The position numbers were made by a program, and so were the translations under genes. Below the pieces are notes generated by a model. That model ran no database searches, had not been told where the DNA came from, and saw nothing but the letters and a program-made list of their open reading frames with translations. A stretch of 45,909 nucleotides of DNA from positions 1-45,909 of IMG/VR virus record IMGVR_UViG_3300018868_000009; one strand, 5' to 3'. Below, piece after piece: positions 16,627-37,014 of the stretch (the first letter of the stretch is position 1; every line of letters starts with the position of its first letter). Origin of the DNA: a virus.

Positions 16627-16627
16627 T

Positions 16628-17011: not shown

Positions 17012-17012
17012 T

Positions 17013-18797
17013 TTATCCTTCGCATGCAATACAATCATTGCCTTGGGCTATTTGTGTCATATCTAATTCTTTAATGACATTTCTTTCAATCTTCTTGGAA
17101 ACTTTATCTGCCTTACCAATCTTTTCAGAACGGCAATAGTATAATGTTTTCAATCCTTTTTTCCATGCCATAAAGTGAACAGCATGGATATACTTAATGT
17201 GAACATCTGGTCTAAAAAATAGATTTAATGATTGTGCTTGATCAATATATGCTTGGCGGTCAGCAGCAAGGTCGATAACCCAACGCTGGTCAATCTCCAT
17301 GGAAGTTTTGAACACATCCTTTTCAGCTTCACTTAAAATATCTAAATGTTGGCATGATCCATCGTTTGCAATAATGCTGGACCAAATATCAGCATAGTCC
17401 TGCTCATCTTTTGATTTTTCTTTGACAATCTTATCCAGCCAACGGTTCTTGTTTAAGAAAGAGCCCGAAAGAGTATCCTGCCGATAAGCATTGGCACGGT
17501 AAGGTTCAATACTAGGACTAGTATTCCCCATGATAATGGAAGAAGAAGCATTGGGAGCAATAGCCATAAGATGACTAAACCTACGACCGGTACCAGCCGC
17601 ATCAGGAGCTTCACCTCTCTCGGTACCCAATTCAATGTTCGCTGCATCTAAACCCTTTCGAATAGTTTTAAATATCTTGTTATTGGCTACTTTGGCCATA
17701 ACTCCTTCAAAAGCGATCCCGTTACGTTGTAGATAAGCATGAAAGCCGAGAGCGCCGATACCAATAGAACGCTCTCGTTCAGCGGAGTATCTAGCCCTAG
17801 AGATAGCGTCAGGAGCATTAGCAATGAAGTAATTAAGCACGTTATCAAGCATTTCAGCCACATCTTTAAGAAAAAGTTTATTGTTTTTCCATTCATCATA
17901 GGTCTCCAAATTTAAGCTTGATAAACAACATACGGCAGTTCTCTGTTCGTTTGTTGGTAAAATGATTTCTGAGCAAAGGTTTGATTGGTGTACCTTCAAT
18001 CCTTTTTCTTTTAGAAAAGATGGAAGTTCACGGTTACTTGTATCAATATAGTGAATATAAGGTTCACCTGTATTCATACGAATCTCTAACAGTTGTTGCC
18101 ATAGGTGTCGAGCAGATACCACTTCACGGATTTCTCCTGAGTGTGGATCCTTTAGTTCCCAATCATCACTTGCTTCGGGATCTAACATACATCTTTCCAG
18201 AATTTGCATGAAAGCATCGGGAATGTTTACACCATGGTGGAGATTCAAACAACGAACATTTGGATCGCCTGTCGGCTTTCGCATTTCTAAAAAAGAAATG
18301 ATATCAGGATGAGATATATCAAGGTAAGCGGCATAAGAACCACGCCGAGTGCGACCTTGGCGATAGGCCAAAGAACTCGCATCGTAAATTTTGAGATGAG
18401 GCATAACGCCTGTTGACTTATCATCAGCAGCACGGATACCAAATCCGATACCAACACCGCCGCCAAGCATAGAGAGCCAATTAGTTTCCGAAAGGTTATC
18501 AACTAATCCCTCCGCAGTATCTTCAATATAATTAAGGAAGCATGATATAGGCATGCCACGCTTACTACGACCAAAAGAGAGAATGGGAGTAGAATAAGAG
18601 AGCCAATGTTTACTGCTGTATTCATATAATCTTTGTGCATGATCTAAGTTTGTTCCAAATGATTTTGACACGAAAGCGAACCTGTGTTGTGGAGAAGTTT
18701 CATCTTCTCGCATATAAGATTCTTGAAGCCTTTTGATTCCAAGTTCATCGAATAGTTCATCTCGCTTTAAATCTATGTTGATGCCAAAATAATCCAT
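17013..18797 (-). CDS. nrdA: Ribonucleotide reductase large subunit, class I, 594 aa
   Basis: NrdA contains the catalytic site of class I ribonucleotide reductase. Visible residues: C86 (GMPISCFLNY) and C290 or C291 (TAVCCLSSLNL) as the redox pair, N273, C275 and E277 in SNLCSEIILPT for radical chemistry, the Tyr pair in LKTLYYCRSEK for radical transfer, and a C-terminal CIAC pair that takes electrons from thioredoxin or glutaredoxin. At 594 residues it is much shorter than E. coli NrdA (761) and has no obvious N-terminal ATP-cone, so dATP feedback inhibition is probably lost. The start is set at the ATG 18797 behind AAGG. Confidence 0.9.
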   Translation of the reverse strand: MDYFGINIDLKRDELFDELGIKRLQESYMREDETSPQHRFAFVSKSFGTNLDHAQRLYEYSSKHWLSYSTPILSFGRSKRGMPISCFLNYIEDTAEGLVDNLSETNWLSMLGGGVGIGFGIRAADDKSTGVMPHLKIYDASSLAYRQGRTRRGSYAAYLDISHPDIISFLEMRKPTGDPNVRCLNLHHGVNIPDAFMQILERCMLDPEASDDWELKDPHSGEIREVVSARHLWQQLLEIRMNTGEPYIHYIDTSNRELPSFLKEKGLKVHQSNLCSEIILPTNEQRTAVCCLSSLNLETYDEWKNNKLFLKDVAEMLDNVLNYFIANAPDAISRARYSAERERSIGIGALGFHAYLQRNGIAFEGVMAKVANNKIFKTIRKGLDAANIELGTERGEAPDAAGTGRRFSHLMAIAPNASSSIIMGNTSPSIEPYRANAYRQDTLSGSFLNKNRWLDKIVKEKSKDEQDYADIWSSIIANDGSCQHLDILSEAEKDVFKTSMEIDQRWVIDLAADRQAYIDQAQSLNLFFRPDVHIKYIHAVHFMAWKKGLKTLYYCRSEKIGKADKVSKKIERNVIKELDMTQIAQGNDCIACEG

Positions 18798-22052: not shown

Positions 22053-22355
22053 TTATAATTTAGGTGAACTTCTTTTAGCCATCGAAATCATTACTGGTGT
22101 TTTCTTTTTCTTCATATTAACACCAGGTTCACCACCTTTACCACCGGCACCAGCAATAGCGCCAGAGCTTACTGCATTAGTTGGTCCAGCAACTGCGGCT
22201 GCGGCACCATCTTCTTTAACTGGTACACAATTAGGTACTGTTGCACCATTCTTTTGTTTTGTACCAATAGCGGTATATCCTGTCCAACAAGCTTTCTTTA
22301 AATCGCCGGTTGGTTGTTTAACTTTTTCGTCCAAGTATTGTTTAAATGATTTCAT
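22053..22355 (-). CDS. Virion-associated protein with capsid-targeting-like N-terminus, 100 aa
   Basis: The start is set at ATG 22355, which overlaps the previous stop (TAATG), giving MKSFKQYLDEKVKQ. The first ten residues match the pattern of the T4 capsid-targeting sequence (MKTYQEFIAE) and include an L-x-E site for the prohead protease. A motif DLKKACWTGYTAIGTKQKNG, then TVPNCVP, follows; I have seen it in other marine T4-like phages. The middle is Ala/Gly-rich low complexity and the C-terminus is basic. Probably a small protein packed in the prohead. Not a known enzyme. Confidence 0.65.
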   Translation of the reverse strand: MKSFKQYLDEKVKQPTGDLKKACWTGYTAIGTKQKNGATVPNCVPVKEDGAAAAVAGPTNAVSSGAIAGAGGKGGEPGVNMKKKKTPVMISMAKRSSPKL

Positions 22356-22837
22356 TAACAGTTCCACTTTCTTAATGATAGTGCTTTACGAGTTGGTTCG
22401 CCGTTAGGTTTCTTCATCGGACCTTCCATACCACTCATTCGAGCACAAAATGATTTTCTACGATTTGCTGCTTTAGAACCAGGTTTTAATTTCGATGGAG
22501 GTGTTGTAACTGCCATCGATAATTTGGAACCAGGATGTTCTCTACGATACGAAGCGATACCTTTACGGTTTAATCCGCCTTTTGGATCTTTACCTGCTTT
22601 TCTTTGCCAAGCAGCAGATTCTTCTATATGATTTTTAATCCATGCATCAGGACTTTTTCCATGCTTAGATACAAAATCATCATGTAAATCTTTACCGGTA
22701 GTATTACCTTTTTTAGATATATCTGTCATCAATTTATCAATTGATTCATAGTCGTGGTTATCCAACTTCTTTAAGCCTTTTTCCAAGGCGGTAACACAAC
22801 AGCAATTTTCTTCTAAGTATTGTTTAAATGTTTTCAT
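22355..22837 (-). CDS. Virion protein, DUF6321-like, with capsid-targeting-like N-terminus, 160 aa
   Basis: The N-terminus MKTFKQYLEENCCC is nearly identical to that of the next gene (MKSFKQYLDE) and resembles the T4 capsid-targeting sequence, with a candidate L-E-E cleavage site. The C-terminal half (GLNRKGIASYRREHPGSKLS, then PGSKAANRRKSFCARMSGME and PTRKALSLRKWNC) is very basic and matches, from memory, a marine phage family called DUF6321. The basic domain could bind DNA inside the capsid. It overlaps both neighbours. Confidence 0.7.
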   Translation of the reverse strand: MKTFKQYLEENCCCVTALEKGLKKLDNHDYESIDKLMTDISKKGNTTGKDLHDDFVSKHGKSPDAWIKNHIEESAAWQRKAGKDPKGGLNRKGIASYRREHPGSKLSMAVTTPPSKLKPGSKAANRRKSFCARMSGMEGPMKKPNGEPTRKALSLRKWNC

Positions 22838-24285: not shown

Positions 24286-25266
24286 TTATTTCTTACTTAG
24301 CCTGTCGAATGCCATTTGGCCAGGAACTACATTCTTCATCAATGGATCAATCTCAACGGTATCTCTTTTGATTCCCGTTAATGTTGTTCCACCAACCATG
24401 ACTGCTCTTGCTTGAGGCTTCTTTTGGTCCATGTTATCTTGACCATCAGGTTTATCAATTTTTGGTTTTTTACCATAAGATTGAGCTTTATCGTCTTTCT
24501 CCCAATCGTAGGTTTCTTCTTTCACACCCTTAGCTTTATAAAGGGATTTAATAATACGAGCAGACTTTGTTCTTTCAGCTTGAACCGATTCTTTATTCAA
24601 ATGCTTTTCTAAACGGTCAATAGCAGAAGTCATATCATCTTTGTTTGTATCAGCAACAGGCACAGTCACTTTAGATGGATCCTGGTGTAATTTTTCTTGA
24701 CGTTTTTTCTCAATGTCGTTATGCTTCTTTTCTCTTTCATCAGCAGCTGCACGCCATCTATCTAAAGCAGTAGTTTTTGGCATTTTGGCTTCATCTAAAA
24801 CTTCTTCACTTGTAGGTTTGCGATCAGTTAAACGGTCTATTGCTCCGTCCCAACTTTTAGAACGCTTCTTGATTCTTACATTGAATGCTTTACGTTGTTC
24901 ACCAGGTTTTTTCTCAGGAATAGGCTTTTGTTGGCCCAACCAAGATTTAACTGTTTTCTTGGAGATTTCAACAATCTGTTCTACTTCTTCATTATCAGTT
25001 GCTTCTAGGATGTTTTCTTCACGAAAATTATGTTCGTGGTTTTGTTTCCATTGTAGAAATTGGCCAGATTTTGAATGAGAAATCTTTGTGTCCGTAGAAA
25101 CAAAGTTAGGATTAATTCCTCTAGATTTCAGAAATTGGTTTAACAGCTGTTGCTCAGATGCTTCAACAATACCTGCTTTGGCACCCCACGGATCCAAAGG
25201 ATCAATACCTGACTTTCCTCTGGCGGGTTCAGGATTCTGTTTAATGATATCCTTTAATCTTTTCAT
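24286..25266 (-). CDS. Hydrophilic virion-block protein, 326 aa
   Basis: A highly charged, probably largely unstructured protein (starting MKRLKDIIKQNPEPARGKSG). It contains NEEVEQIVEISKKTVKSWLG near residue 95, a motif I recall as recurring in T4-like marine phages. The I-V-E within it would be a prohead-protease site. Near the C-terminus is VMVGGTTLTGIKRDTVEIDP, which looks like an ordered beta segment. I infer an internal or core (scaffold-like) head protein that is cut during maturation. The N-terminus only loosely fits the capsid-targeting pattern. No enzymatic motif seen. Confidence 0.6.
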   Translation of the reverse strand: MKRLKDIIKQNPEPARGKSGIDPLDPWGAKAGIVEASEQQLLNQFLKSRGINPNFVSTDTKISHSKSGQFLQWKQNHEHNFREENILEATDNEEVEQIVEISKKTVKSWLGQQKPIPEKKPGEQRKAFNVRIKKRSKSWDGAIDRLTDRKPTSEEVLDEAKMPKTTALDRWRAAADEREKKHNDIEKKRQEKLHQDPSKVTVPVADTNKDDMTSAIDRLEKHLNKESVQAERTKSARIIKSLYKAKGVKEETYDWEKDDKAQSYGKKPKIDKPDGQDNMDQKKPQARAVMVGGTTLTGIKRDTVEIDPLMKNVVPGQMAFDRLSKK

Positions 25267-26351
25267 TTTGCATCACTTTTAATTTTATTGAAAGCTGAAC
25301 GAGCTAAATCTCTGGCACGGGACATTGGTGTGTGTATATTACCGCCTTTGTCCTTAACATTCTTTGACATTTTTTTCCAACCATCTTTTTCTAGAGCAGC
25401 TTCACGATCTTGACGGTCAACGTCCATTTGATTAAATTTACCTTCTTCAACTTGTTCAAATTCTTCTGGTAATTTACCTTTAGGACCGTGAGTACCTAAA
25501 GCAGATTTGATAGCAGGTTTAAGTTCTTTTGCTCGATCTCCACGGCGTTTTTCGGCATAAGCACCAGTTTCTTTACTGACACCAGGAGTATTCATTCCTG
25601 GAATGTTTCCTAGATTGGTTTGACCTGTGCGAGGAAACTTATGTGGCAAATTCATACCTGTCCGAGCAAGTAATTTATCAGCTTCTTCAACTTGTTCAAC
25701 TTCTTCATTACGATTCTTTGCAAGGTTCTCAGGAGCAGAGATAGAATCTTTCTTAGGACCTTTAGCATCAGCAACAGTCAATGGGGTGTCACCTTTAGCT
25801 TTACGGAGATAAGCAGGCACATCCGATTTACGGACTGTTTCTAGAAGCCTAGCAGCAAAAGATTTACTCTCTTTAACTTTCTTTTTACCACGGAGAATAT
25901 CAAAATCTTGACCATCAATTTTATTATTATGGTTGGCATCAATCTTAGCTTGATTACCTTTGAGTTCTTCTTTCATGTTCTTATCAGCAATAGCCTTTTT
26001 CATGGATTCTTTTTTATTACCATCTTTATCCATATCCAAAAAATCTGGTTTAGCGGCTTCTTTCATCTCTTTGTCCTTAGGACCTTTGAGAGCATCAACA
26101 GGAGATTTAGTTTGATCTTGGCGAGCTTTCTTAGAATTACCATAAGAAGAACCATACACTTTTGTTCCAGTTGGAGTTGCAACTTTTTCGTGGCCAGATT
26201 CACTCAATGTTTGTGATTCAACAGGTTGTGCAGGAGCAAATGGAACTCGGCCATTTGGAGTTTCCACTACAACAGGTTTTGGTTCTTCTTTTCCAAGAAC
26301 CTTATTGACCGCATCGATCATTGATTGACTTACTTTACTGGATGAAAACAT
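25263..26351 (-). CDS. Hydrophilic virion-block protein with EF-hand-like loops, 362 aa
   Basis: The ATG at 26351, behind GGAGAATAAAA, gives MFSSSKVSQSMIDAVNKVLG; a longer frame upstream is not needed. The protein is mostly disordered and charged. Two segments resemble calcium-binding EF-hand loops: KPDFLDMDKDGNKKESMKKA and KIDANHNNKIDGQDFDILRG. Two acidic motifs, NEEVEQVEEADK and PEEFEQVEEGKF, resemble the one in the 326-aa neighbour, suggesting shared protease sites or duplicated modules. Likely a prohead core or internal protein; this is inference from composition and position. Confidence 0.6.
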   Translation of the reverse strand: MFSSSKVSQSMIDAVNKVLGKEEPKPVVVETPNGRVPFAPAQPVESQTLSESGHEKVATPTGTKVYGSSYGNSKKARQDQTKSPVDALKGPKDKEMKEAAKPDFLDMDKDGNKKESMKKAIADKNMKEELKGNQAKIDANHNNKIDGQDFDILRGKKKVKESKSFAARLLETVRKSDVPAYLRKAKGDTPLTVADAKGPKKDSISAPENLAKNRNEEVEQVEEADKLLARTGMNLPHKFPRTGQTNLGNIPGMNTPGVSKETGAYAEKRRGDRAKELKPAIKSALGTHGPKGKLPEEFEQVEEGKFNQMDVDRQDREAALEKDGWKKMSKNVKDKGGNIHTPMSRARDLARSAFNKIKSDAK

Positions 26352-26364
26352 TTTTATTCTCCGT

Positions 26365-28140
26365 TTATTTTCTTTTCTTTTTCGAAACACTTGTTGCTCG
26401 AATTTTATTATCATTAGGTGTCACTAAAGGTTCTTTATTTGTGGCACCACCAAGAGTTCCTCCGACACCCATATCATAGGCACCAGGATCATCTATTGCT
26501 TCTTTTCTAAACTCACCAAAAGCTTTCTGTTCACTATATGTTTGATCACCTAAACCAATTCCTACACCAGATCGTGAATTGAATGTTGCACCAATTCCTA
26601 ATCCTTGATTCTTTTGCATACTGTAAATGTCATTAAACGTTTTTCTTTTTAAGCTTTTGGTTTTTTCTTTATCTTGCTGGAAGTTGGGCTCTTTCGGCGT
26701 GGATTGGATTTTGATTTTGGGATCGCTGGCTTCGTATGCACGGAAGGTGTAACCGGAGTTACTGGCGAGGTCACCGTCACGGACGTCATCTTGCTTTCCG
26801 GCTTTTCGCTGGATTTGCTGGACTGGACTGTTGTTGTCAACGAGGACTTGACCGGTTTTACTTTTAATTTTTCTAAGAAATTTGTTAGAAATTTGAACAT
26901 TTTTATCTTCCTTGAATAATGATTCTATCTTGTAATTAGTATACGATTTGTTATTCCTACACAACCAATCTTCAGCTGTTTCATTCAATACCCTTGAATC
27001 CAGAAATTCATTAGTGGATTCATATATTTGGTGGATATCTTCTTCTTTACTATCTATGTCGCCTGTATTATCTAATGGAACAAATACTTTAAAGGCTTCG
27101 GTGAAATATTTAGTATTTCTCTGCGATTTTGCCCATTTGTCACGGCGGACCGACTCAATCATCATTCTGGAGAGTAATGAATTTCGTTCTTTACTGGCTT
27201 CATCTGATGTGTCCACAAAGACCATCATGGTTTCATAACCCAATTCTTCAAGTTCTTCTTTAATATGTTCAATCTTCTCATTATCATCAGCAGGACCATT
27301 AACAATCAATGGACCACGGTTGCGGATAGCTTCTCTCCGTATATCTTTGGATTGTTCAGATAATCTCTGTTTATCAGCCAAGTAATCGATGGCTTGGACA
27401 AAATTGAGTTCTACGATACGGCTTTCGGAGATGGCTTCACGGATAACAATATCTTTACCTGAACCAGGACCACCAGTTACAAAGATTGCTTTGAAAATAC
27501 CACGGTCAACATCTTCGTGTATTCCCATACCTTTACGGACATCCTTATACAACTCTTTGGCATGAGCTTCGTGTTTCACCATGTGTGTGGAGAGACCTTT
27601 TTTGAATTCTTGATATTTGTTTGATTTGGCATGTTCCCGCATCTTGGTGCCGGACATACCTTCAGCACCTTCTGCGTCAGGATCTCTAGATCCGGATGAG
27701 TGAACTGTGATTTTTTTGAAATTATACGGTACATGACCTGACTTGTCGGCTTTACCATTATAACTGTTTAATTTTTCTTTATACTCTTTGACACGATCCG
27801 AACCAGCAACTACATGAAGGTGTGTAACACCTTGTTTATGGAGCTTTTCAGCGTGATGAAAGATTGTTGGATGTTCTTTATCCGAACCTTCAATATTAGT
27901 ATTTGGGAAAGCTCTCTTGGCGTGCTTAATTTTATCCTTCTGACTTAGTGGATCTTTTTTAGCATTCGTTGTATGTGAAAGAACAACATGATGTTCAGCA
28001 TTATGTTTAGCTGCTACTTCTTTAACCTTGTTGATAACCTTTTCATGACCCGCTGTTGGTGGATTCATCCGACCAAAAGCCAACACGGCATGCTTACCAG
28101 ATCCTTCTTTTTCTTCGACTAATTCTAGGAACGATTTCAT
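26365..28140 (-). CDS. NadR-like nucleotidyltransferase-kinase with capsid-targeting-like N-terminus, 591 aa
   Basis: Three parts are visible. Residues 1-10 (MKSFLELVEE) resemble the T4 capsid-targeting sequence. Residues 17-170 form a nucleotidyltransferase: AFGRMNPPTAGHEKVINK with an intact T-x-G-H motif, LHVVAGSDRVKEYKEK, and GMSGTKMREHAK as the ISSTxxR-type motif. Residues 215-400 are a P-loop kinase domain with Walker A GGPGSGKD (223-230) and LIVNGPADDN. The order adenylyltransferase then kinase is that of NadR (NMN adenylyltransferase plus nicotinamide riboside kinase), so NAD synthesis is a plausible role, though other nucleotide substrates are possible. The last 190 residues are charged and low in complexity. 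I chose the ATG 28140 because it starts the targeting-like motif. Confidence 0.7.
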   Translation of the reverse strand: MKSFLELVEEKEGSGKHAVLAFGRMNPPTAGHEKVINKVKEVAAKHNAEHHVVLSHTTNAKKDPLSQKDKIKHAKRAFPNTNIEGSDKEHPTIFHHAEKLHKQGVTHLHVVAGSDRVKEYKEKLNSYNGKADKSGHVPYNFKKITVHSSGSRDPDAEGAEGMSGTKMREHAKSNKYQEFKKGLSTHMVKHEAHAKELYKDVRKGMGIHEDVDRGIFKAIFVTGGPGSGKDIVIREAISESRIVELNFVQAIDYLADKQRLSEQSKDIRREAIRNRGPLIVNGPADDNEKIEHIKEELEELGYETMMVFVDTSDEASKERNSLLSRMMIESVRRDKWAKSQRNTKYFTEAFKVFVPLDNTGDIDSKEEDIHQIYESTNEFLDSRVLNETAEDWLCRNNKSYTNYKIESLFKEDKNVQISNKFLRKIKSKTGQVLVDNNSPVQQIQRKAGKQDDVRDGDLASNSGYTFRAYEASDPKIKIQSTPKEPNFQQDKEKTKSLKRKTFNDIYSMQKNQGLGIGATFNSRSGVGIGLGDQTYSEQKAFGEFRKEAIDDPGAYDMGVGGTLGGATNKEPLVTPNDNKIRATSVSKKKRK

Positions 28141-28144
28141 TGTT

Positions 28145-28717
28145 TTAAGATGCACCTATCTTCATATTTGTCAAAGGACCATTGTTGTGTTTAGATTGTA
28201 AACTCAAAACTTTGGCGCCTTTTGTATCATGTTCGTGTTCGTGTGCATGAACGTTAATATTTGCTTCGCCACCTTTATGGAAAGATAAATGATGAGCATT
28301 TCTAATTTTATGATATGTTTCATTGTCGGACGGATCGCTTACCGTAGCTTTGGCTTTCTTATCATGACCACCTTGGCCATGAACTTTAACATAAGGTAAA
28401 GAATGTTCTGAATTGCCTTTAATGTAAGTATGTAGAATATGATGTTTTAATTCTTCCGGATGAGTTTTAGCCATTGAAGAATAACCTTTATGCAGTTTAT
28501 CTCTCACTTCATTATTAATTATTTTGGCGTGTTCGCCGGCTTTTTTGTATAACTCACTTTTTTTATATTTTGGATTTTCTACTTTTTTCTCATTATCTAG
28601 GTGTTTAGGCCCTTTGATAGCTCTTACTGCTGCAGCTTTATTTGTGCCAAGTCCATGTTTAGTCATAAACTCTTGGTGGCGTGTTTGTACATGGCCATGG
28701 ATATCATACTCACTCAT
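28145..28717 (-). CDS. His-rich virion-block protein, 190 aa
   Basis: The protein is unusually rich in His and Lys (NVHAHEHEHDTKGAKVLSLQ). Its ATG follows a strong GGAG and overlaps the previous gene by eight bases. The C-terminal SLQSKHNNGPLTNMKIGAS looks like a folded end. Its length, His-rich style and position suggest it may be the second half of a larger protein, together with the 263-aa gene upstream, that is a single chain in relatives; this is a guess. No enzyme family is recognised with confidence. Confidence 0.6.
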   Translation of the reverse strand: MSEYDIHGHVQTRHQEFMTKHGLGTNKAAAVRAIKGPKHLDNEKKVENPKYKKSELYKKAGEHAKIINNEVRDKLHKGYSSMAKTHPEELKHHILHTYIKGNSEHSLPYVKVHGQGGHDKKAKATVSDPSDNETYHKIRNAHHLSFHKGGEANINVHAHEHEHDTKGAKVLSLQSKHNNGPLTNMKIGAS

Positions 28718-29501
28718 GATTTTCTCCTGAATGTTTGCCTAAAAACTTACTGAGTTCTTTTGTTCCGCCATTATGAAAAGGAATCTTATTAACTTTACTT
28801 GACTTAGCAGACAATCCAAGATAGTGATGTTTTGCTGTAGCGGGTTTTTTATGAAATTTGACAGCAATGTCCGATGGGTTTTCTTGTTGAGTGGCTTTGA
28901 GGCCTGTTTTTCTCTCAATGTCGCCAGGTTTTGGAGTTAAATGAACTTCGTGAACACCTTCATAACCTCTTTTTTTAGCATGTTCATGAAAAACTCTGGA
29001 TTGTTCTTTAGCTCTATCTTCTTGGGTTTTTACTTCGTGTGTACCATATTTCTTATCATGATCGGCTAATTTTGATTTGTGATATTTGTCCTGTGTTTCA
29101 TGTTCTTTGTCAATATACTTTCCAGAATTTAAATGTTTAGCCAATTGAGTTTCGTTGTAACCACCACGATAAGTATTTAATTCCGCTGATGCCGCCTTTG
29201 CAGCTTTATGTTTAGCACTATCTGCGGCTGACATGGCAGGTTTTTTGGCAAGTTCATCCAATCTTTCTTCATGTAACTTGTCGACCAAAATTAAACCATG
29301 GTCTTTTTTCAATTCTTTAGCTGCTTCATCTGGAGTTAAATGTCCGGAAACTGTGTGAGCCAAATCGCCATATTTGTTATGGACGTTATATACATTGTTC
29401 TCGGTATCATGACTTAACTTATACATTCCTTTGGTTGGATGATAAAAAGAATGGAATCCTTTTTTAATCTGTTCCAATAAGTAACTTTTAAAACTTATCA
29501 T
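28710..29501 (-). CDS. Nuclease-like virion protein with capsid-targeting-like N-terminus, 263 aa
   Basis: The N-terminus MISFKSYLLEQIKKG fits the capsid-targeting-like pattern with an L-L-E site. The middle is a long charged helical region with many His and Lys. Near the C-terminus, QENPSDIAVKFHKKP then YLGLSAKSSKVNKIPFHNGG has the shape of a PD-(D/E)xK nuclease core: P-S-D on one strand and S-x-K on the next, with Ser where Glu/Asp is usual. The 454-aa protein at 37323 has a similar pair (NPADLWIVD and GVSLKQ). If packed in the head it could attack host DNA on entry. Function is inferred. Confidence 0.55.
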   Translation of the reverse strand: MISFKSYLLEQIKKGFHSFYHPTKGMYKLSHDTENNVYNVHNKYGDLAHTVSGHLTPDEAAKELKKDHGLILVDKLHEERLDELAKKPAMSAADSAKHKAAKAASAELNTYRGGYNETQLAKHLNSGKYIDKEHETQDKYHKSKLADHDKKYGTHEVKTQEDRAKEQSRVFHEHAKKRGYEGVHEVHLTPKPGDIERKTGLKATQQENPSDIAVKFHKKPATAKHHYLGLSAKSSKVNKIPFHNGGTKELSKFLGKHSGENHE

Positions 29502-30718
29502 TTTCTCACCTTTAACAAATTCTGTTTAGCAAACTCAGCACGATTAACCAACTTAGTAGGTTCTTCTTTACCGCCTTCAGGTTTATGGTTCACTACAAAA
29601 CCCTCAGGTTTAGATTTCTTACCATCAATATGGTGGTGATATCTACCTTCATGAGTTTCTAATGAGTTAACCAAAGCGTTTTTAGCCTGATGTAAATGGT
29701 GGTGCATGGAGAATAGGTTACCGTAATGTTCTTTATGCTTTTCTACATGAGCAATCTGTTTCTTACCTTCACCAGTTTTTTCTGTTTTAGATTTTTCTGT
29801 TGAAACTTTAGAAGCTAACTTTTCATGAGCATCATGTAAGTGTTGCTTAAATCCTTTGACACTTGGAACTTCATCATGCCTTACTGTTTTGTTTATGTAT
29901 GTTGATAGGTGGCCAGCTTCTCCACTATGTTTTGGATGAACGGCATCATACATTTTGTGGCCATGTGTATCATGGATTTCTTTGGCGGCTGTCATATGTT
30001 TTTGAAAGTGTTTCTCATTCTCGGGCGAATGCTTTACTTTACTTGTGTCATGTTCAGCACCATGTAAGTGGACATCCGGATGATCTTTGAACTTACTCAT
30101 ATCTGGATGAGGAGAAACGGACATATGACCGATATCAGATCCGTGATATTGTTGATGTACCACTACGCCAACCTTGGATTTCTTAATCTTATCTGCTTCA
30201 CCTTTTTCCTTAGGAGTATAGGTGATTGTATTAGGTGTAAATGACACCTTAGAATCTTTGGCTTCCACGATATAACCCTCATGGAGAGTTTTGGTATCAG
30301 CATGGTGCATTAAATCACCTTGGTATACACCAGTTTTTGGTGTTACCTTAGGTAGATGCTTTAAAGCGTGTTTGAGTGTTTTTACTAAACCCGGTGCGTG
30401 GCCGTGGTTCTTTTCAATATCTTTATCTGTATGATTGATCTTGGGGTTCTTATTGAAGGCCGACTTGGTGGCCACAAAGAATTTACCATTTTTAGGGTGA
30501 TGACCAAAAACGATTGATGGAGAACCATCATATTTCATCGTCAGGTTACTATTTTGATGTCCAGCAGTAATGTGTGCATGAGCTTGATTTAAAACACCAA
30601 AAGCGTGTTCAAAACCCTTGTGGCCATGCATCAAAGGACGATCTTCAGCATGATGTATATGCTTCAAGCTCGAAGCTTCTTCAGATTCTTCTTTTAAAAA
30701 AGTTACAAACGATTTCAT
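29498..30718 (-). CDS. Ligase-like nucleotidyltransferase with capsid-targeting-like N-terminus, 406 aa
   Basis: The protein begins MKSFVTFLKEESEEASS (capsid-targeting-like; candidate L-K-E site). Residues 58-110 carry LTMKYDGSPSIVFGHH, where K62-Y-D-G is the motif I of DNA/RNA ligases and mRNA capping enzymes, whose Lys is adenylated. LHEGYIVEAKDSKVSFTPN resembles motif IV and KKSKVGVVVHQQYHG motif V. I recall a T4-like phage family, DUF6267, with this plan. The remaining sequence is His/Lys-rich. It could seal nicks or RNA in the newly infected cell. It is the first gene after the best late promoter (30765-30772), starting 47 bases downstream. Confidence 0.65.
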   Translation of the reverse strand: MKSFVTFLKEESEEASSLKHIHHAEDRPLMHGHKGFEHAFGVLNQAHAHITAGHQNSNLTMKYDGSPSIVFGHHPKNGKFFVATKSAFNKNPKINHTDKDIEKNHGHAPGLVKTLKHALKHLPKVTPKTGVYQGDLMHHADTKTLHEGYIVEAKDSKVSFTPNTITYTPKEKGEADKIKKSKVGVVVHQQYHGSDIGHMSVSPHPDMSKFKDHPDVHLHGAEHDTSKVKHSPENEKHFQKHMTAAKEIHDTHGHKMYDAVHPKHSGEAGHLSTYINKTVRHDEVPSVKGFKQHLHDAHEKLASKVSTEKSKTEKTGEGKKQIAHVEKHKEHYGNLFSMHHHLHQAKNALVNSLETHEGRYHHHIDGKKSKPEGFVVNHKPEGGKEEPTKLVNRAEFAKQNLLKVRK

Positions 30719-30842: not shown

Positions 30843-31538
30843 TTAAAACTTGGATCCTTCAAAATCCAACCAATAGGTGTTTATTTGACCTTTACCACGC
30901 AATGCATAGAATGGTAAAGTATGCATTAAACCTCTACTGGAGTTATAGTATATCAAATTTTTAGGGCTTTCGTCAAGTGCCCAAGCAAAATGTGTTGTTC
31001 CTGTGTCACCACCTACGAATGTTTCCGAGGTCATAATGTGGTAAATATTGGTTAGAAAGTCGGTGCTGGTTTTCCATCCATCGACCTGTATATCCGTTGG
31101 ATGACAAATGATCTTTTCGTGGTCCATATATTCTTCGGAACTATATTGTTGAAGTATCGATTCAAATACTGGCTTTGGCCAATTTCGGTAAGTATTGTAA
31201 GGTGCGTCAAGTAAAGGACAAACAACAATCTTCTTTTGCATCTTTTCTTTATTTGGTATTTTTACCAAATCTCCAGAGATATCTCTAAAGTCCCAAAGAT
31301 TTATGTTTTTCCAATTTAACTTTTCTGTGCCAGGTTGTGCTGAGAAGTAATCAGTATTTAAAATCATCCATCGATGAAAATCCCTAACATATTCAGCTGG
31401 ACTTAAACCGTCCATCAAAATGTGGAATTTTAAATTTGGATTATCTTTTCTGAGGTATTCAACAACATTAGCAATAGCAACCAAATCGCCATTGCGAATA
31501 CAATTGCCGAATACTCCACATTCGATATTGAGAATCAT
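30843..31538 (-). CDS. GT9-like glycosyltransferase, 231 aa
   Basis: The protein resembles heptosyltransferase-type (GT9, GT-B fold) enzymes: an N-terminal GNCIRNGDLVAIANVVEYLR, a central strand IVVCPLLDAPYNTYRNWP, and the C-terminal donor-site motif TFVGGDTGTTHFAWALDESP. At 231 residues it is shorter than cellular GT9 enzymes (about 320). It overlaps the upstream gene by four bases. It is the last gene of the glycan cassette. Sugar and acceptor unknown. Confidence 0.65.
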   Translation of the reverse strand: MILNIECGVFGNCIRNGDLVAIANVVEYLRKDNPNLKFHILMDGLSPAEYVRDFHRWMILNTDYFSAQPGTEKLNWKNINLWDFRDISGDLVKIPNKEKMQKKIVVCPLLDAPYNTYRNWPKPVFESILQQYSSEEYMDHEKIICHPTDIQVDGWKTSTDFLTNIYHIMTSETFVGGDTGTTHFAWALDESPKNLIYYNSSRGLMHTLPFYALRGKGQINTYWLDFEGSKF

Positions 31539-32272
31539 ATTACCAAATCTTTTACATACACCAATTTTGCATTACGGTCACCGTAGTAATGTCGTTTGAA
31601 ATCAAATTCAACACCATGGCCATCCCAAATTCTCATATCTTCATCCCAACAAACAATCGTTTCTTTGTGCATTAAGTCAGCAATGATACCGATGCCTGTA
31701 AATGTGGTGATAAAAGGTTTAGGACTATTCTTAATGAGATTTAGATTATACATGATCGGTTTTGTATAGTCAAGATAAAACACTTCATTGGGATCAAGAT
31801 TTGTTCCACCTTCGACCACATTTGTATTTCTTCGTGTATCTATATTAGGATCTTGTTTTGATGACCATCGATCACCAATGATTGTTTTAGTGATAGTTTC
31901 AATTTCAGCATCAACCATTGGATCAACTTCAATTTCAAAATCATCATCAACTTTAAAATCTAATTGATAATTGTCACGAACCCAATTTTCATATCGACAA
32001 GTTTCGATTGGTCGATCTGCTGCTTCTTGGTCCATGCGAGTCCATGAACTAATTGTTAATATATCACCATAGTTAAAGACCTCATCGTGAAAATATACTT
32101 CACTAAACATGGGTTGATATTTTAAAAACTGTTTGATGCCGGCAAATTTTCTCATTTCTGGCCGAATAAACAATTCAATCTTTTGGTCAAAACGTTTTGA
32201 TATTCCTGAGATCACAGGTAAAGCATTACAAAAGTCGCCTAAGTTGGCGGTGCAATCAATCCTCAGCTTCAT
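31535..32272 (-). CDS. GT9-like glycosyltransferase-related protein, 245 aa
   Basis: The ATG at 32272 has a strong AGGAG seven bases upstream. The start MKLRIDCTANLGDFCNALPV has the Gly-Asp-x-x-x-x-x-P pattern of heptosyltransferase N-termini, and PFITTFTGIGIIADLMHKET resembles the donor-site region. Together with the next gene it may form a pair of related enzymes. It overlaps the preceding HtrL/YibB-like gene by 17 bases. Sugar specificity unknown. Confidence 0.55.
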   Translation of the reverse strand: MKLRIDCTANLGDFCNALPVISGISKRFDQKIELFIRPEMRKFAGIKQFLKYQPMFSEVYFHDEVFNYGDILTISSWTRMDQEAADRPIETCRYENWVRDNYQLDFKVDDDFEIEVDPMVDAEIETITKTIIGDRWSSKQDPNIDTRRNTNVVEGGTNLDPNEVFYLDYTKPIMYNLNLIKNSPKPFITTFTGIGIIADLMHKETIVCWDEDMRIWDGHGVEFDFKRHYYGDRNAKLVYVKDLVI

Positions 32273-33059
32273 TAAAACTCCTAAGTGCGACAAACCAATC
32301 TTGGTCATTAACTCGATGTAATTCGAAAAATTCAGGCTTTTGTAAATATGCCATCAATAATAATGTTTGATCATCATCCACCAAACCATTTTTAAATAAG
32401 TCATCAAGACTGTGGTGTACCAATCCTTCTAATATTGGCCACATCTCTTTACCTGCAACGATACAAGGACCTGTGATGTGAACATCATTATTTGATATTA
32501 CATCTTGGATGAATGTTCCATCAACCCAATCTTTAATGTTGAAAAGGTGAATTTTGTTTTTATCAAAAGAATATTCCCACCTTTTGTTTCCACCTAAGGT
32601 ATTTTCATCACGGCAATAACCAAAGTCCAGCCAAGCAACTAAATCAGTTTCAATGATGTTGGATTGTATGGCACGATTGACAAAAGCAGATTTTAAAGCA
32701 TTGACGAGAACGTAGTCAGCATTCCAATATTCTGGATTTTTTACTTGCATGGGATTTATTTTAGCTTGATAATCGGGGTTCGTTTGTACCTTTTTGATTT
32801 CTTCCCTGAGCATTTTAAAACTTTCGGGAAAATCAAGCGTAAGAATTTCGGTTGGTCGATCTTGGCGGAGAAACTTAATCTCATCGACCATATCTTTTGA
32901 TGTATATACCACCATATCGTTTTCAAGTTTAGCCATGTGACTAAATCTTTCTAGATAGGTTTCATTTGTTCTTTGTAGGTAATGTGGTAATCCTTTATCG
33001 GGACTCCATTCACCACGGCCAATGTCAAAGAAAGCTGTTACAATTGTAATATCATTCAT
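32256..33059 (-). CDS. HtrL/YibB-like glycan-locus protein, 267 aa
   Basis: The N-terminus NDITIVTAFFDIGRGEW matches the HtrL/YibB family, which is found in lipopolysaccharide core loci and has a GT-A-like glycosyltransferase look. Further features are MVVYTSKDMVDEIKFLR, the central VAWLDFGYCRD (candidate DxD-like site), and HITGPCIVAGKEMW. The molecular function of the family is not firmly known. It starts four bases before the end of the methyltransferase gene upstream. Confidence 0.65.
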   Translation of the reverse strand: MNDITIVTAFFDIGRGEWSPDKGLPHYLQRTNETYLERFSHMAKLENDMVVYTSKDMVDEIKFLRQDRPTEILTLDFPESFKMLREEIKKVQTNPDYQAKINPMQVKNPEYWNADYVLVNALKSAFVNRAIQSNIIETDLVAWLDFGYCRDENTLGGNKRWEYSFDKNKIHLFNIKDWVDGTFIQDVISNNDVHITGPCIVAGKEMWPILEGLVHHSLDDLFKNGLVDDDQTLLLMAYLQKPEFFELHRVNDQDWFVALRSFNEAED

Positions 33060-33613
33060 TTTTTTCTCAATACAAAAATTCTGTTGTCATAACTTGCGTC
33101 ACTACCCGTGTCAATAAACTCAAAATCGCAGTTGGGAGGAATAACTTTTATAAACTCACCAACCGCAGCAACACTTTCAATATCTTCAATTATCAATATA
33201 CCACCAGTTTTTAATTTTGGCAAATATAATTTAATACATTCAACTTGTGAATCTACGGAGTGTGGACCATCATCAATAACAATGTTCAATTCAGGAAGTG
33301 AATTTACATATTCTACACTATAAGCATCAGCAATGTCAATTTTTATGTTTGGAACATCTTTAGTATTATTCTTCGATTCTCCATTCCAATCATTAATGTC
33401 AACGCCATAGATGTGTCCGTTTGGAAAGTAATCACTCCATAATAATAAACTACCACCTTTTAATATACCAATTTCCAATAAATTAACTTCTTGGCCTTGA
33501 AATTTTAAGAATTCTTTACCGCATAATAAAGAAAGATATTTGTGTTTAGATTCTTTATCTGTGTTATGATATTTGTCAGGATTTTTGTCATGCAATTCAG
33601 CAAGAGTTTTCAT
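33056..33613 (-). CDS. Class I SAM methyltransferase, 185 aa
   Basis: A Rossmann-fold methyltransferase: motif I is VNLLEIGILKGGSLLLWSDY (SAM-binding, E-x-G), followed by HIYGVDINDW, NIVIDDGPHSVDSQVECI and GGILIIEDIES. The pattern I-D-D-G-x-H and the length suggest a sugar or macrocin-type O-methyltransferase (TylF-like). It sits among glycosyltransferases, so a sugar O-methylation is plausible. Overlaps both neighbours by four bases. Confidence 0.75.
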   Translation of the reverse strand: MKTLAELHDKNPDKYHNTDKESKHKYLSLLCGKEFLKFQGQEVNLLEIGILKGGSLLLWSDYFPNGHIYGVDINDWNGESKNNTKDVPNIKIDIADAYSVEYVNSLPELNIVIDDGPHSVDSQVECIKLYLPKLKTGGILIIEDIESVAAVGEFIKVIPPNCDFEFIDTGSDASYDNRIFVLRKK

Positions 33614-34347
33614 TCGTAATAAAATTTCTTATAATTATTAATAATTTCAATTTCGGGTGGTTGATTACTTATAAAGGTTTCATAATCAAATCCTGGTTGA
33701 TGATTATGTGTATCTGCACGATGTGGATTAACTGAATAATCTTTACCAGCCAAAAAGTAATATACATTCATAAAACAATCAATATAACCAATCGTTGGAT
33801 AAACCATTTGAATCATGTCAAAGTATTTTTTGAACCATTCAATATTACTATCATAATGTTCTAAGAATGTGGATACTTTAAATATTGAACCACCACCAGC
33901 ACCATACTGTGTAAATGTTGGTCGTTTGCCACAATGTATTTCAATCATTTCAATTACAGTTTCGGGAATATGATTACCAATCTTTGTATCAGCACAAGCG
34001 TGTTCCCAACTCTCATCAATCGTAATAGGTTTAATTATTAATACATCATCTTCAACCATCATCATATATGGTGACGTTGCATTGAGGCAAGCCGTTTTAA
34101 ATCTTTCTAGAAATCTTAGTGTTTTATCCAAATCATAACCAATTGGTGGTACAGGACCACCCAAAGGATTATCGTATATAACATAATCACACTTATTATC
34201 TTCAGCCATCTTTTGAAATTCTAACTTTCGACCATCGATGGCTAAGAAATAGTAATTATAAAAATGGTGTTTCTTTATATTCTGTATAATACATTCGGTT
34301 GATTTCGGATAAACCGAAGCAATGTGAAAAAAGTCAGGACTAAACAC
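33610..34347 (-). CDS. GT-A-type glycosyltransferase, 245 aa
   Basis: The protein has the profile of a GT-A glycosyltransferase. An N-terminal FHIASVYPKSTECIIQNIKK is followed by NYYFLAIDGRKLEF, then SPYMMMVEDDVLIIKP, where E-D-D-V would be the metal-binding DxD. TQYGAGGGSIFKVSTF and YIDCFMNVYYFLAG lie in the acceptor region. The apparent start is GTG at 34347, eight bases inside the upstream gene; the next ATG would remove the first conserved strands. Donor and acceptor unknown. Confidence 0.6.
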   Translation of the reverse strand: MFSPDFFHIASVYPKSTECIIQNIKKHHFYNYYFLAIDGRKLEFQKMAEDNKCDYVIYDNPLGGPVPPIGYDLDKTLRFLERFKTACLNATSPYMMMVEDDVLIIKPITIDESWEHACADTKIGNHIPETVIEMIEIHCGKRPTFTQYGAGGGSIFKVSTFLEHYDSNIEWFKKYFDMIQMVYPTIGYIDCFMNVYYFLAGKDYSVNPHRADTHNHQPGFDYETFISNQPPEIEIINNYKKFYYE

Positions 34348-34867
34348 GTTTGAGCACCGTCAATCCATTATTGTTAGTTAAACGGCAAACCATTTCCCAT
34401 TCAGGATGGATGTCCATGAACTCTTGAATTGCTGGCCAAATACCTTTGCCGCCAAACTCACCATTAAATTCATAAGATGTAGTATCATGAAATCCAATAA
34501 ACTTTTTAGCTTTATCAGCATGAAGCCTTAATTCTTCTTGTACCTGCTCATAGATGTGTAGGCTATCAACAAATAAGAAATCAGTAGGTTCAATTTCAAT
34601 CTTCCTTGTGTCAGCAATGTGTAGAGTTACATTTCTACCTGAATTTTTGGCTTCTTCAAAGAATTCTGGAATACCCGGTTGCGGACTGAATTCGTAACTG
34701 TGTAATTCAACATCGTGATTTAGAAACGCTCGAGTGCTTTGAGCCCAACCAACACCAAGTTCGGTAACATGACTACATTCAGAAGTTAACATCGACAATA
34801 GTGGCAAATGTTCATGTATGTCGGTAACTCTATCGCAAGCTTCTTCGTATTCTTTTTTAAAGTCCAT
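34340..34867 (-). CDS. Class I SAM methyltransferase-like protein, 175 aa
   Basis: The start is set at ATG 34867, behind AGGA. The fold is suggested by SHVTELGVGWAQSTRAFLNH (motif I), VELHSYEFSP, then TDFLFVDSLHIYEQVQEELR and KKFIGFHDTTSYEFNG. This resembles the methyltransferase family 24 group often found beside glycosyltransferases. One of three methyltransferase-like genes in the cassette. Substrate unknown. Confidence 0.65.
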   Translation of the reverse strand: MDFKKEYEEACDRVTDIHEHLPLLSMLTSECSHVTELGVGWAQSTRAFLNHDVELHSYEFSPQPGIPEFFEEAKNSGRNVTLHIADTRKIEIEPTDFLFVDSLHIYEQVQEELRLHADKAKKFIGFHDTTSYEFNGEFGGKGIWPAIQEFMDIHPEWEMVCRLTNNNGLTVLKRV

Positions 34868-34868
34868 T

Positions 34869-35726
34869 TTAAGTCCTATAAACAAAATAATTATTCGGGT
34901 CTTCCTGATTATACTTCTTCATAATAAACTCTCGCCATTCGGGAACACGATCATACTGATGAACGATTGAAAAAGGAACTCCCAAGGATGTTTTAACAAT
35001 ACCATTTTCAAAGGTTGGTGGAGCTTCAAGTAGTAGTGGTCTGAATTGTTCAATTTTGGATGGGTCTACCGTGGTACCAGCTTGGCAGGCCCAGCCGTTA
35101 AGTTGTTTTGCAAAGTAAATAATATCTTTATATGGTTGTGTTTGTATCAACACATTATAAACGGCTTGGTCTACGATTGGAATGGGTCTACCAATGGCGT
35201 TTGTGAAGATATTGAACACCAAATCTTTCACATATTCAGATGTACCACCGATGGTTCCAACATTGTAGATTTCATTATCTTTAAACTTATTATAAACATA
35301 GTCACCGTAAGTTTGTAATAGGTTTTCATTACCCCACGGTTCATCTTTATATTTCATACCTTCGGAACCAGCAACCAATTTATACTTTTGTCCTAATTTA
35401 GATTCTAACCATTTCATAGGATTGGTTTGAAAGTAAACATCTTTTACATCCGTGGTTACCACATAACGATATTTTTGCCAATTGGTACTGAGATAATCAT
35501 AGATAGATAAAAATCTAGCCACATGGATTGGTGCATTGGTTTGAATCATTGGTACTACGATGAATTTTCGTTTGATTAATTCTAGTGTGGTTTCTTTTGA
35601 AGCATTACCAACGACCATCACTTTATCGCCAGTAAATCCACATTCATCGATTGATTCAACCCAAGGTTTTAACTGGTTATAGTTATAGTTTGTGAAGGCA
35701 CCGATGATAAGGTCTTTTTGCGCCAT
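34869..35726 (-). CDS. GT-A-type glycosyltransferase-like protein, 285 aa
   Basis: The protein has the look of a nucleotide-diphospho-sugar transferase: DLIIGAFTNYNYNQLKPWVE, then YRYVVTTDVKDVYFQTNPMK, where D-V-K-D occupies the DxD position. EIYNVGTIGGTSEYVKDLVF and IVDQAVYNVLIQ follow, typical of the acceptor half. It begins 58 bases before the end of the upstream GT2 gene, an unusually long overlap for this genome. Sugar unknown. Confidence 0.6.
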   Translation of the reverse strand: MAQKDLIIGAFTNYNYNQLKPWVESIDECGFTGDKVMVVGNASKETTLELIKRKFIVVPMIQTNAPIHVARFLSIYDYLSTNWQKYRYVVTTDVKDVYFQTNPMKWLESKLGQKYKLVAGSEGMKYKDEPWGNENLLQTYGDYVYNKFKDNEIYNVGTIGGTSEYVKDLVFNIFTNAIGRPIPIVDQAVYNVLIQTQPYKDIIYFAKQLNGWACQAGTTVDPSKIEQFRPLLLEAPPTFENGIVKTSLGVPFSIVHQYDRVPEWREFIMKKYNQEDPNNYFVYRT

Positions 35727-36427
35727 GGGAAATCTCCATTATATTTGTCATTCATTATATTATTTCCATTAAGAAAGAATTCTTTAGAAACGGAACCTGC
35801 ATTACCAGCAACTCGATAGTTTACTGTATATTCATTTGTGCAATCGAATTTGGGAAAGTATTGTGCTACTGTTTGAAAAAATACTCTATCTTGACCCCAA
35901 CCACCATGCCACGCAGAGGCCAATTTTATCGCAATTTCTGTTTTGAGGCAATAACTATTGGTATCGATATGATTGACACCATGATAAGTTTGCCACTTTC
36001 CCAATGATTCACAATCATCATGGCAAATAAAATCTATACTTTCATAGATGTCACGGAGAGAATAACACCAATCCAACTTTTTATCTTCTATTGTTTTGAT
36101 GCAGGATTCTACATGGTTAGGTTTCAACCAATTATCTTGGTCGAGATATAACACATAATCAGTATTAACCAAATGAGTGAAAGCGGCATATACACGATGG
36201 CCATAGAAACCATTGGCTCCCACATTCAAAGGCAAATTACAAACAAATATCTTTTTATAGTTTGGATGCATTTCAAATACTCTTATATGATTTTTTACTG
36301 CATGAACAAAATCAGGACCATCACAAACAATATAACACTTAGTATCATAAGTTTGATCCAATACAGATTCAATAGCATCATAAACTGTTGGTGCACCCGT
36401 TGTGGGTATAATTACTGTTGCGCTCAT
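35669..36427 (-). CDS. Glycosyltransferase family 2 protein, 252 aa
   Basis: A classical GT2 fold: SATVIIPTTGAPTVYDAIES and VLDQTYDTKCYIVCDG at the N-terminus, NVGANGFYGHRVYAAF, then TDYVLYLDQDNWLKPNHVES with D-Q-D as the metal site, and AWHGGWGQDRVFFQTV near the acceptor loop. The start is the ATG at 36427, which overlaps the previous stop (TAATG). It transfers a sugar from a nucleotide donor; the acceptor is unknown. The C-terminal 19 codons overlap the next gene. Confidence 0.8.
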   Translation of the reverse strand: MSATVIIPTTGAPTVYDAIESVLDQTYDTKCYIVCDGPDFVHAVKNHIRVFEMHPNYKKIFVCNLPLNVGANGFYGHRVYAAFTHLVNTDYVLYLDQDNWLKPNHVESCIKTIEDKKLDWCYSLRDIYESIDFICHDDCESLGKWQTYHGVNHIDTNSYCLKTEIAIKLASAWHGGWGQDRVFFQTVAQYFPKFDCTNEYTVNYRVAGNAGSVSKEFFLNGNNIMNDKYNGDFPWRKKTLSSVPSQTITITS

Positions 36428-37014
36428 TACCATTTCCAAAATAATTGATAACCATCATGACACAAAGGTCGACCACTTTTTTGCATATAATCAAACACGA
36501 ATTGACCTTTGCCGGCCAACTTGCCGTTATCAATCCAATTATCATCTACACCAATCAATGCACCACCAGATAAAGAAGGTGCAATCGTAAGTAATTCATA
36601 TAGATGGTGTAAGGCACTCATATAAACAACATCAGGTTCATCCCTCGGAGCATCAAAACTGTCCAAGTAAAGAAAATCAATTTTTCTTTTACTATCTAAA
36701 AAATGTTGATTGAGTTTTTTTAAGTAGGTGATACTATCAGATTCCACAACGGTTGTTTTATTAGAAACTTTACTTTGGCAATATTGAACACTCTCTTTGG
36801 CCAAATCTACTGTGTAAAAATCTCCACCATATTCAGAAATGTATTTGTCGAACATTAAACTGCTTTGTCCGTCACCTTCATAGTTGTTTTCTTGACGAGC
36901 ACAACCAGTTTCTACTATTAGGGGATTTTGGCGTTGTTTTAAAAAATCAAAGATATAATCAAATCCACTTTGTCGATGGCCAAGTCTACTCCTCACATCA
37001 TCATAAAATTTCAT
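36427..37014 (-). CDS. Class I SAM methyltransferase-like protein, 195 aa
   Basis: Motif I is NPLIVETGCARQENNYEGDG, followed by SLMFDKYISEYGGDFYTVDL, KIDFLYLDSFDAPRDEPDVV and GGALIGVDDNWIDNG. The pattern is that of class I methyltransferases, probably acting on a sugar or small molecule given the neighbours. It is the first gene of the glycan cassette, three bases after the stop of a replication-region gene, so no separate promoter is evident. Confidence 0.65.
   Translation of the reverse strand: MKFYDDVRSRLGHRQSGFDYIFDFLKQRQNPLIVETGCARQENNYEGDGQSSLMFDKYISEYGGDFYTVDLAKESVQYCQSKVSNKTTVVESDSITYLKKLNQHFLDSKRKIDFLYLDSFDAPRDEPDVVYMSALHHLYELLTIAPSLSGGALIGVDDNWIDNGKLAGKGQFVFDYMQKSGRPLCHDGYQLFWKW

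Follow-up and report, generated by a model that had tools for sequence, protein, structure and literature searches.

We read the locus described here as a capsid-borne nucleotidyltransferase/ligase module. It lies in an IMG/VR virus record (IMGVR_UViG_3300018868_000009), a 45.9-kb fragment of 45,909 nucleotides that we refer to as the window, and its main open reading frame (ORF) encodes a 591-residue protein that combines a leader resembling that of a T4 internal protein with a nucleotidyltransferase domain, a P-loop domain, and a disordered basic tail (Table 1). With moderate confidence in the explanation as a whole, we propose that this protein is an internal enzyme carried in the capsid of a freshwater T4-like phage and that it acts together with a ligase-fold partner, DUF6267. 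What is new is the module as a whole, in which a nucleotidyltransferase that we propose to be capsid-borne is joined to a degenerate kinase domain and accompanied by a ligase-fold partner. The nucleotidyltransferase itself has packaged relatives that have been published as virion-borne NMN adenylyltransferase (NMNAT)-like proteins or cytidylyltransferases (PMC3037559, PMC9602691, PMC10665884), and the original prediction was mistaken in holding that no packaged version was known.

Table 1 Features of the locus, with coordinates in the window
Feature	Position	Strand	Basis or remark
Main ORF: leader, nucleotidyltransferase domain, P-loop domain, disordered basic tail	26365..28140	minus	591 aa
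Capsid-targeting-like leader MKSFLELVEE, residues 1-10	28111..28140	minus	IPIII match; pattern in 68/68 family members
Nucleotidyltransferase domain, residues 17-208	27517..28092	minus	PF01467 at cut-off; VIA-align Z 13-15 to CoaD, NMNAT, NadD
TAGH, T29-H32, (H/T)xGH motif	28045..28056	minus	T29, G31, H32 invariant in alignment A1
SGTKMR, residues 163-168, SxTxxR-type motif	27637..27654	minus	S163, M167, R168 invariant in alignment A1
Interdomain [LIM][HN]E209, putative prohead-protease site	27514..27522	minus	inferred
P-loop domain, residues 210-400, zeta-toxin/polynucleotide-kinase type, degenerate	26941..27513	minus	
GGPGSGKD, residues 223-230, Walker A with Asp for Ser/Thr	27451..27474	minus	D230 in 68/68
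DUF6267 protein, ligase-fold partner, leader MKSFVTFLKE	29498..30718	minus	PF19782, 316 bits
KYDG, residues 62-65 (K62-Y-D-G65), ligase-type motif I in DUF6267	30524..30535	minus	K62, D64, G65 invariant, 42 sequences
Basic, His-rich, Cys-free ORF, leader MISFKSYLLE	28710..29501	minus	relatives keep leader pattern
Basic, 12% His, Cys-free ORF without leader	28145..28717	minus	
Basic Cys-free ORF, start MFSSSKVSQ	25263..26351	minus	resembles S-SCSM1_92, annotated virion protein
Basic, Lys-rich, Cys-free ORF, end of block	24286..25266	minus	

The frame is open on the minus strand from an ATG at 28140 to a stop codon ending at 26365, and the protein starts with MKSFLELVEEKEGS. The three motifs on which the original prediction was built (T29-A-G-H32, S163-G-T-K-M-R168, and G223-G-P-G-S-G-K-D230) are all present. 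In the AF2 model (mean pLDDT 68.2), both domains reach about 85, and most of residues 404-591 fall below 50. The protein is strongly matched by two PHROG families annotated as cytidyltransferase, phrog_3041 (2.8e-62) and phrog_395 (4.1e-39), and its nucleotidyltransferase domain is homologous to the cyanophage virion cytidylyltransferase family (T4-GC190/phrog_395, phrog_3041). By tblastn, 528 phage records match it, mostly from Synechococcus and Prochlorococcus phages and often annotated as “cytitidyltransferase”; none does so over 80% of its length, and most of the matches listed span the first domain only. Viral contigs, by contrast, are rich in full-length relatives; 120 were found there, of which 80 were kept. 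From 81 hit rows, we retained 67 non-identical sequences starting at query residue 1, and 52 of these together with the window protein make up alignment A1 (53 sequences), in which the named motifs are invariant or nearly so. Given the relatives in viral contigs, the phage records, and the conservation of the motifs, the ORF is not a product of chance. A search of genome_contigs for a cellular origin or neighborhood returned 34 loci, which are probably phage contigs as well, since nearly all are titled MAG and 21 have DUF6267 nearby.

The rest of the window carries T4-like replication genes (polymerase, UvsX, helicase, primase, and ribonucleotide reductase) and an endolysin; because the record is a 45.9-kb fragment, capsid and protease genes are not to be expected in it. 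Next to the helicase gene, a protein encoded at 38689-39798 (minus strand) matches Druantia DruA (PF14236, 34.6 bits against a cut-off of 27) and, over its full length, phrog_19197, a family of unknown function. Two iron-sulfur cluster genes of the Fe-S_biosyn and NifU_N families lie between the ribonucleotide reductase genes (16303-17038, minus), and a radical SAM protein of 495 residues (6077-7564, minus; PF04055, 71 bits) gave no match in the PHROG search.

The case for packaging starts from the N-terminus. T4 IPII and IPIII are described as carrying an N-terminal leader of about 10 residues for core packaging, as being trimmed by gp21, and as being injected with the DNA (PMC9958956). The first ten residues of the window protein, MKSFLELVEE, match the start of IPIII taken from the T4 record, MKTYQEFIAE, position for position, and a leader of this form is kept in all 68 family members. 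The pattern M[KR]x[FY]xx[FYL][ILV]xE occurs at 3 of the 53 gene starts in the window (the 26365, 29498, and 22355 ORFs), against 0.004 expected from internal positions, a probability that is not fully independent because the pattern was drawn from IPIII and phage homologs including the window protein. Beyond the leader there is no similarity to the T4 internal proteins (IPIII) or Alt, which contain no nucleotidyltransferase. Closer counterparts are S-SCSM1_91 (ORF91; 35% identity, leader MKSFLQFLKE) and SSM1_190 of S-SM1 (T4-GC190; 37% identity, leader MKKFSAFLNE), which resemble the window protein in nucleotidyltransferase family, leader type, and basic neighbors but lack the P-loop domain. 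Both were reported from virions, T4-GC190 from those of S-SM1 (PMC3037559) and ORF91 from those of S-SCSM1 (PMC9602691), and the genes beside ORF91 (89, 90, 92, and 93) are annotated as virion proteins. A cytidylyltransferase (ORF154), whose kinship to the window protein is the statement of PMC10665884, was detected in S-CREM2 virions with three unique peptides, and two further phages are cited there beside S-SCSM1; the authors of both PMC9602691 and PMC10665884 allow for carry-over of detected proteins. The T4 prohead protease family PF03420 is encoded in three of the four large related records. The capsid-targeting-like N-terminus of the original prediction thus stands, and since the same leader is found on homologs detected in virions, the packaging that it proposed gains indirect support: by analogy with these homologs, the window protein is very probably packaged in the capsid.

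The main ORF belongs to a six-gene block (24286-30718) that is basic (pI 9.2-9.7) and nearly free of cysteine, with 1 Cys in 2139 residues versus 135 in 11328 elsewhere. The product of its ORF at 25263..26351 matches S-SCSM1_92 with an E value of 1.1e-10 in an unfiltered blastp search of a database of 15 proteins. In the ORF at 28710-29501, the stretch NPSDIAV...LGLSAKS resembles, by eye, both a PD-(D/E)XK nuclease core and the SPADIY...SLK stretch of the virion protein S-SCSM1_90; Pfam and PHROG searches of this ORF gave no match. Absence of Cys is not a feature of every leader-bearing gene, because the DUF6321 protein encoded at 22355-22837 (minus) has the leader MKTFKQYLEE and five Cys. The helicase region is separated from this presumably packaged block by a gene run at 30843-37014 (minus), in which three genes have weak or clear glycosyltransferase or methyltransferase matches.

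Judged by its motifs, the nucleotidyltransferase domain is intact. It matches Pfam CTP_transf_like (PF01467) exactly at the cut-off (21.0 of 21.0 bits), and its (H/T)xGH and SxTxxR motifs are common to CoaD and others. By VIA-align, CoaD scores highest (Z 14.9), followed by an NMN adenylyltransferase (13.9), nicotinate types (13.1), and a second NMN adenylyltransferase (13.0). The comparison with NadR on which the original prediction relied holds for the order of the domains and not for the kinase family. NCBIfam matches among the 53 members are all weak; the commonest function-specific one is TIGR01526 (NadR; 25 of 53, best 3.2e-5), ahead of CoaD (19 of 53) and the nicotinate type TIGR00482 (10 of 53). 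Against the PDB, a wider nucleotidyltransferase profile gave weak matches to the UPF0348 protein MJ0951 (0.0014), NadR 6gye (0.0039), NMN adenylyltransferase 9x6f (0.038), and CoaD 5ts2 (0.086), while the whole of alignment A1 found no useful match there by sequence (best E 0.52). Neither the nucleotidyltransferase alignment nor the P-loop alignment gave a decisive result in single-sequence hhalign comparisons with E. coli NadR, NadD, and CoaD (best E 0.007-0.01). NadR chains are absent among the best 50 VIA-align and the best 50 Foldseek rows, from which their exclusion does not follow. A Trp serves for stacking in NAD-type pockets; none of the 68 members has a Trp in this domain, whereas E. 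coli NadR and NadD have four each and the S-CREM1 homolog has two. ATP sulfurylase, ranked first by Foldseek across both domains, was rejected as kin; with a TM-score of only 0.21, we take this match to reflect domain order. Conversion of NMN to NAD is, tentatively and somewhat short of probable, the single most likely reaction of this domain, a phage-specific substrate coming next, and NAD synthesis is a plausible role of the locus. The window also encodes a second CTP_transf_like protein (12263-12634, minus, 123 aa, 30.7 bits) with GTYDPLTLEEL and without the usual (H/T)xGH.

The P-loop domain tells a different story from the kinase that had been predicted. The GGPGSGKD sequence is there, and kinase activity is doubtful. 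Pfam P-loop matches of the window protein fall below cut-off, Zeta_toxin and AAA_33 being the best, and AAA_28 (PF13521), to which the E. coli NadR kinase belongs with 106.7 bits, is absent from its eight Pfam families at E<=1. Foldseek and VIA-align place the domain with adenylate, guanylate, and polynucleotide kinases; polynucleotide kinase 4gp7 reaches a VIA-align Z of 13.0 and is equaled as a match by guanylate and adenylate kinases. A Walker A of the form GxxGSGK[ST] together with the catalytic Asp is found in the stand-alone relatives but not in the window clade, where GKD closes the Walker A motif of all 68 sequences, another residue takes the place of the catalytic Asp, INGPA or INGTT stands where IDGTG would be, and the domain is shorter by about 19 residues. 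Because of these losses, the domain of the window clade, as far as its residues tell, is degenerate or re-purposed and not a ribosylnicotinamide kinase, although GKD need not rule out catalysis by a P-loop. In HTVC008M, Melnitz, and Atu_ph07, the relatives keep GGPGSGK[TS] and N[SV]D. The stand-alone marine kinases, which exceed the Zeta_toxin/AAA_33 cut-offs, have GK[ST] in all 79 readable cases and NSD in 77 of 80 loci, one of the 80 being truncated without a readable Walker A.

The constant partner of the nucleotidyltransferase is DUF6267, a name for which a literature search found no paper. The protein contains the KxDG motif I of the RNA/DNA ligase superfamily, and EGFV (372-375) and K389..R393 are conserved, with E372, G373, and V375 invariant in alignment A2 (42 sequences, i.e., 41 of the 56 relatives left after removal of near-identical ones, plus the DUF6267 of the window). 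Its model is of high quality (mean pLDDT 89.5), and 49 of the best 50 VIA-align rows are RNA, DNA, or tRNA ligases over 168-207 residues, led by Naegleria RNA ligase (Z 8.7), with T4 Rnl2 and a tRNA ligase at 8.1 each. These Z values (6.1-8.7) are middling and Foldseek alone gave no significant match (best E 0.32), but the fold found by VIA-align is that of a ligase adenylation domain, and DUF6267 looks like a predicted RNA-ligase-fold enzyme with ligase motifs. It lies upstream of the nucleotidyltransferase in all 51 loci having at least 3.5 kb upstream, and each of the 41 DUF6267 loci that extend for 5 kb or more from the DUF6267 start contains the nucleotidyltransferase, many of the loci counted being close relatives; 8 of 79 DUF6267 loci show no nucleotidyltransferase, all of them with less flank. 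DUF6267 occurs in 468 phage records. It precedes the nucleotidyltransferase match by 221-282 bases in four cyanophage records and the kinase match by 563 bases in HTVC008M, and in three loci (L269, L294, and L295) its end runs straight into the nucleotidyltransferase. Different parts of phrog_455 match DUF6267 and the main ORF protein. The pair can be split, as in S-SCSM1, where DUF6267 lies at 221 kb and the nucleotidyltransferase gene at 89 kb, and the DUF6267 proteins of S-SM1 and HTVC008M have no leader.

Some marine relatives appear to be polyproteins. L236 (2959-6543) fuses the kinase, PAP2, a weak Pol-beta-type domain, and the (H/T)xGH nucleotidyltransferase in one chain, and L260 (2179-4611) fuses the kinase, a weak Pol-beta-type domain, and the nucleotidyltransferase. 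The sequence [LIMV]xE[AGS] stands just before the nucleotidyltransferase in 17 of 17 distinct long marine ORFs, compared with 75 of 1264 other windows of sequence, although the 17 are related, so that this count overstates their independence. The known cleavage preference of the T4 prohead protease is the basis for taking such sequences as sites, and these LxE|A-type sequences look like putative prohead-protease processing sites. Within the window protein, E209 is found in 68 of 68 members, with L, I, or M at position -2 in all of them, and it lies at the place corresponding to [LIVMF]xE[GN][LVI]YD, which follows a variable leader in 73 of 79 stand-alone kinases. We keep E209 only as an idea for a candidate cleavage site, weak on its own because 5 of the 13 near-invariant Glu also have a hydrophobic residue at -2.

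In the explanation that we favor, the leader MKSFLELVEE would bring the protein into the prohead core and would probably be clipped by the phage’s gp21-type prohead protease, and the protein would then enter the cell along with the DNA. Early in infection, the (H/T)xGH-type nucleotidyltransferase would take a nucleotide from ATP (or CTP) and join it to a substrate that is a phosphate monoester. The P-loop domain would descend from a packaged zeta/polynucleotide-type kinase, which is a separate gene in marine relatives, and, its kinase signature lost, would probably bind a nucleotide or a protein rather than phosphorylating. The enzyme would act in the same process as DUF6267, which has a predicted ligase fold, KxDG, and, in this clade, its own leader. 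Of this explanation, the sequence motifs, the match of the leader, the pairing of the genes, and the predicted folds are observed, and packaging in this phage, cleavage, activity, substrate, and the common process are deduced from them.

Other explanations give NAD the central place. One of them, close to the original prediction, is a true packaged NadR-like bifunctional enzyme, with NMN adenylyltransferase and ribosylnicotinamide kinase activities that would counter NAD depletion or raise NAD at entry. E. coli NadR and L093 share the order of a nucleotidyltransferase followed by a P-loop domain, TIGR01526 is matched more often than CoaD, 6gye and 9x6f rank ahead of 5ts2, and the S-CREM1 homolog is annotated as “bifunctional NadR-like”. 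However, the window protein scores only 12.7 bits over 59 of the 325 positions of TIGR01526, whose cut-off is 341, and the homologs of S-CREM1, S-SM1, and S-SCSM1 have no kinase domain. Unlike the window protein, NadR has an AAA_28 kinase with GGESSGKS and no capsid leader, and E. coli NadR has an N-terminal helix-turn-helix. The claim of both NAD activities is not supported, the kinase half here belonging to another P-loop family and lacking the Walker A Ser/Thr and the catalytic Asp. Jumbo-phage NAD salvage fusions, in which a HIGH nucleotidyltransferase is joined to a P-loop kinase or Nudix domain, are described with NAPRTase pairs (PMC7824862); they are phage-borne NAD enzymes of the same broad fold as the window nucleotidyltransferase, and the part of that paper devoted to them holds no mention of packaging that we found. 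NARP1 (PMC12774641) is another phage-borne NAD enzyme, as the window protein possibly is. No NAPRTase was found in the four large related records, which may be incomplete, and we consider the bifunctional enzyme improbable. A monofunctional packaged NMNAT with a vestigial kinase part, whose NAD would feed the phage or an NAD-using partner at entry, is a tenable if somewhat doubtful possibility. It agrees with the weak profile lean to NMNAT/NadR, with the fold scores to NMNATs (Z 13.0-13.9), and with the published view of the S-SCSM1 homolog as NMNAT-like (PMC9602691), but the CoaD fold score is slightly higher, the Trp is lacking in all 68 members, and NAD supply alone would leave the pairing with DUF6267 unexplained.

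In another reading, DUF6267, a polynucleotide-kinase-type P-loop protein, and nucleotidyltransferases would be delivered together as a virion-borne kit for repair or end modification of nucleic acid, probably RNA. The ligase fold and KxDG of DUF6267, the match to 4gp7, the Zeta_toxin/AAA_33 scores of the stand-alone kinases, and the L236 polyprotein all point this way, and the repair pairs represented by C. thermocellum PNK, T4 Rnl2, and fungal Trl1 provide fold matches to both the P-loop domain (4gp7) and DUF6267 (2hvq, 6n0v). In contrast to those pairs, the P-loop domain of the window protein is degenerate, and we know of no counterpart of the nucleotidyltransferase in PNK plus RNA ligase pairs. 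The equally good matches of the P-loop domain to guanylate and adenylate kinases also count against such a kit, as does the fact that the (H/T)xGH enzymes known so far mostly act on small molecules, and we regard it as rather unlikely. It is likewise improbable that the protein is mainly a structural core protein, with enzyme folds kept as scaffolds and catalysis irrelevant: the long basic disordered tail, the nearly Cys-free basic block, and the degenerate P-loop would suit this role, but the catalytic motif residues of the nucleotidyltransferase and DUF6267 are invariant.

From a biological perspective, reports of virion-detected “cytidylyltransferases” in cyanophages go back to 2010 and have offered no more than a guess about NAD. 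The constant pairing with DUF6267, the leader common to both, and a P-loop domain that looks active when alone but is degenerate in the fusion of this clade turn these proteins into a concrete, testable module. One could imagine, as a speculation that we think unlikely in its full form, that the heads of freshwater and marine T4-like phages hold a ready-made kit of DUF6267, a P-loop protein of the polynucleotide-kinase type, and an (H/T)xGH nucleotidyltransferase. Genes of their own, fusions, or polyproteins would encode these parts, and the prohead protease would cut them apart within the prohead at [LIM]xE|A/G. On injection, before phage gene expression, such a kit would repair or re-cap nucleic acid or supply a dinucleotide cofactor to the ligase. 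Should the injected proteins indeed target RNA or NAD during the first minutes, this would be a means of counter-defense or host takeover that needs no gene expression.
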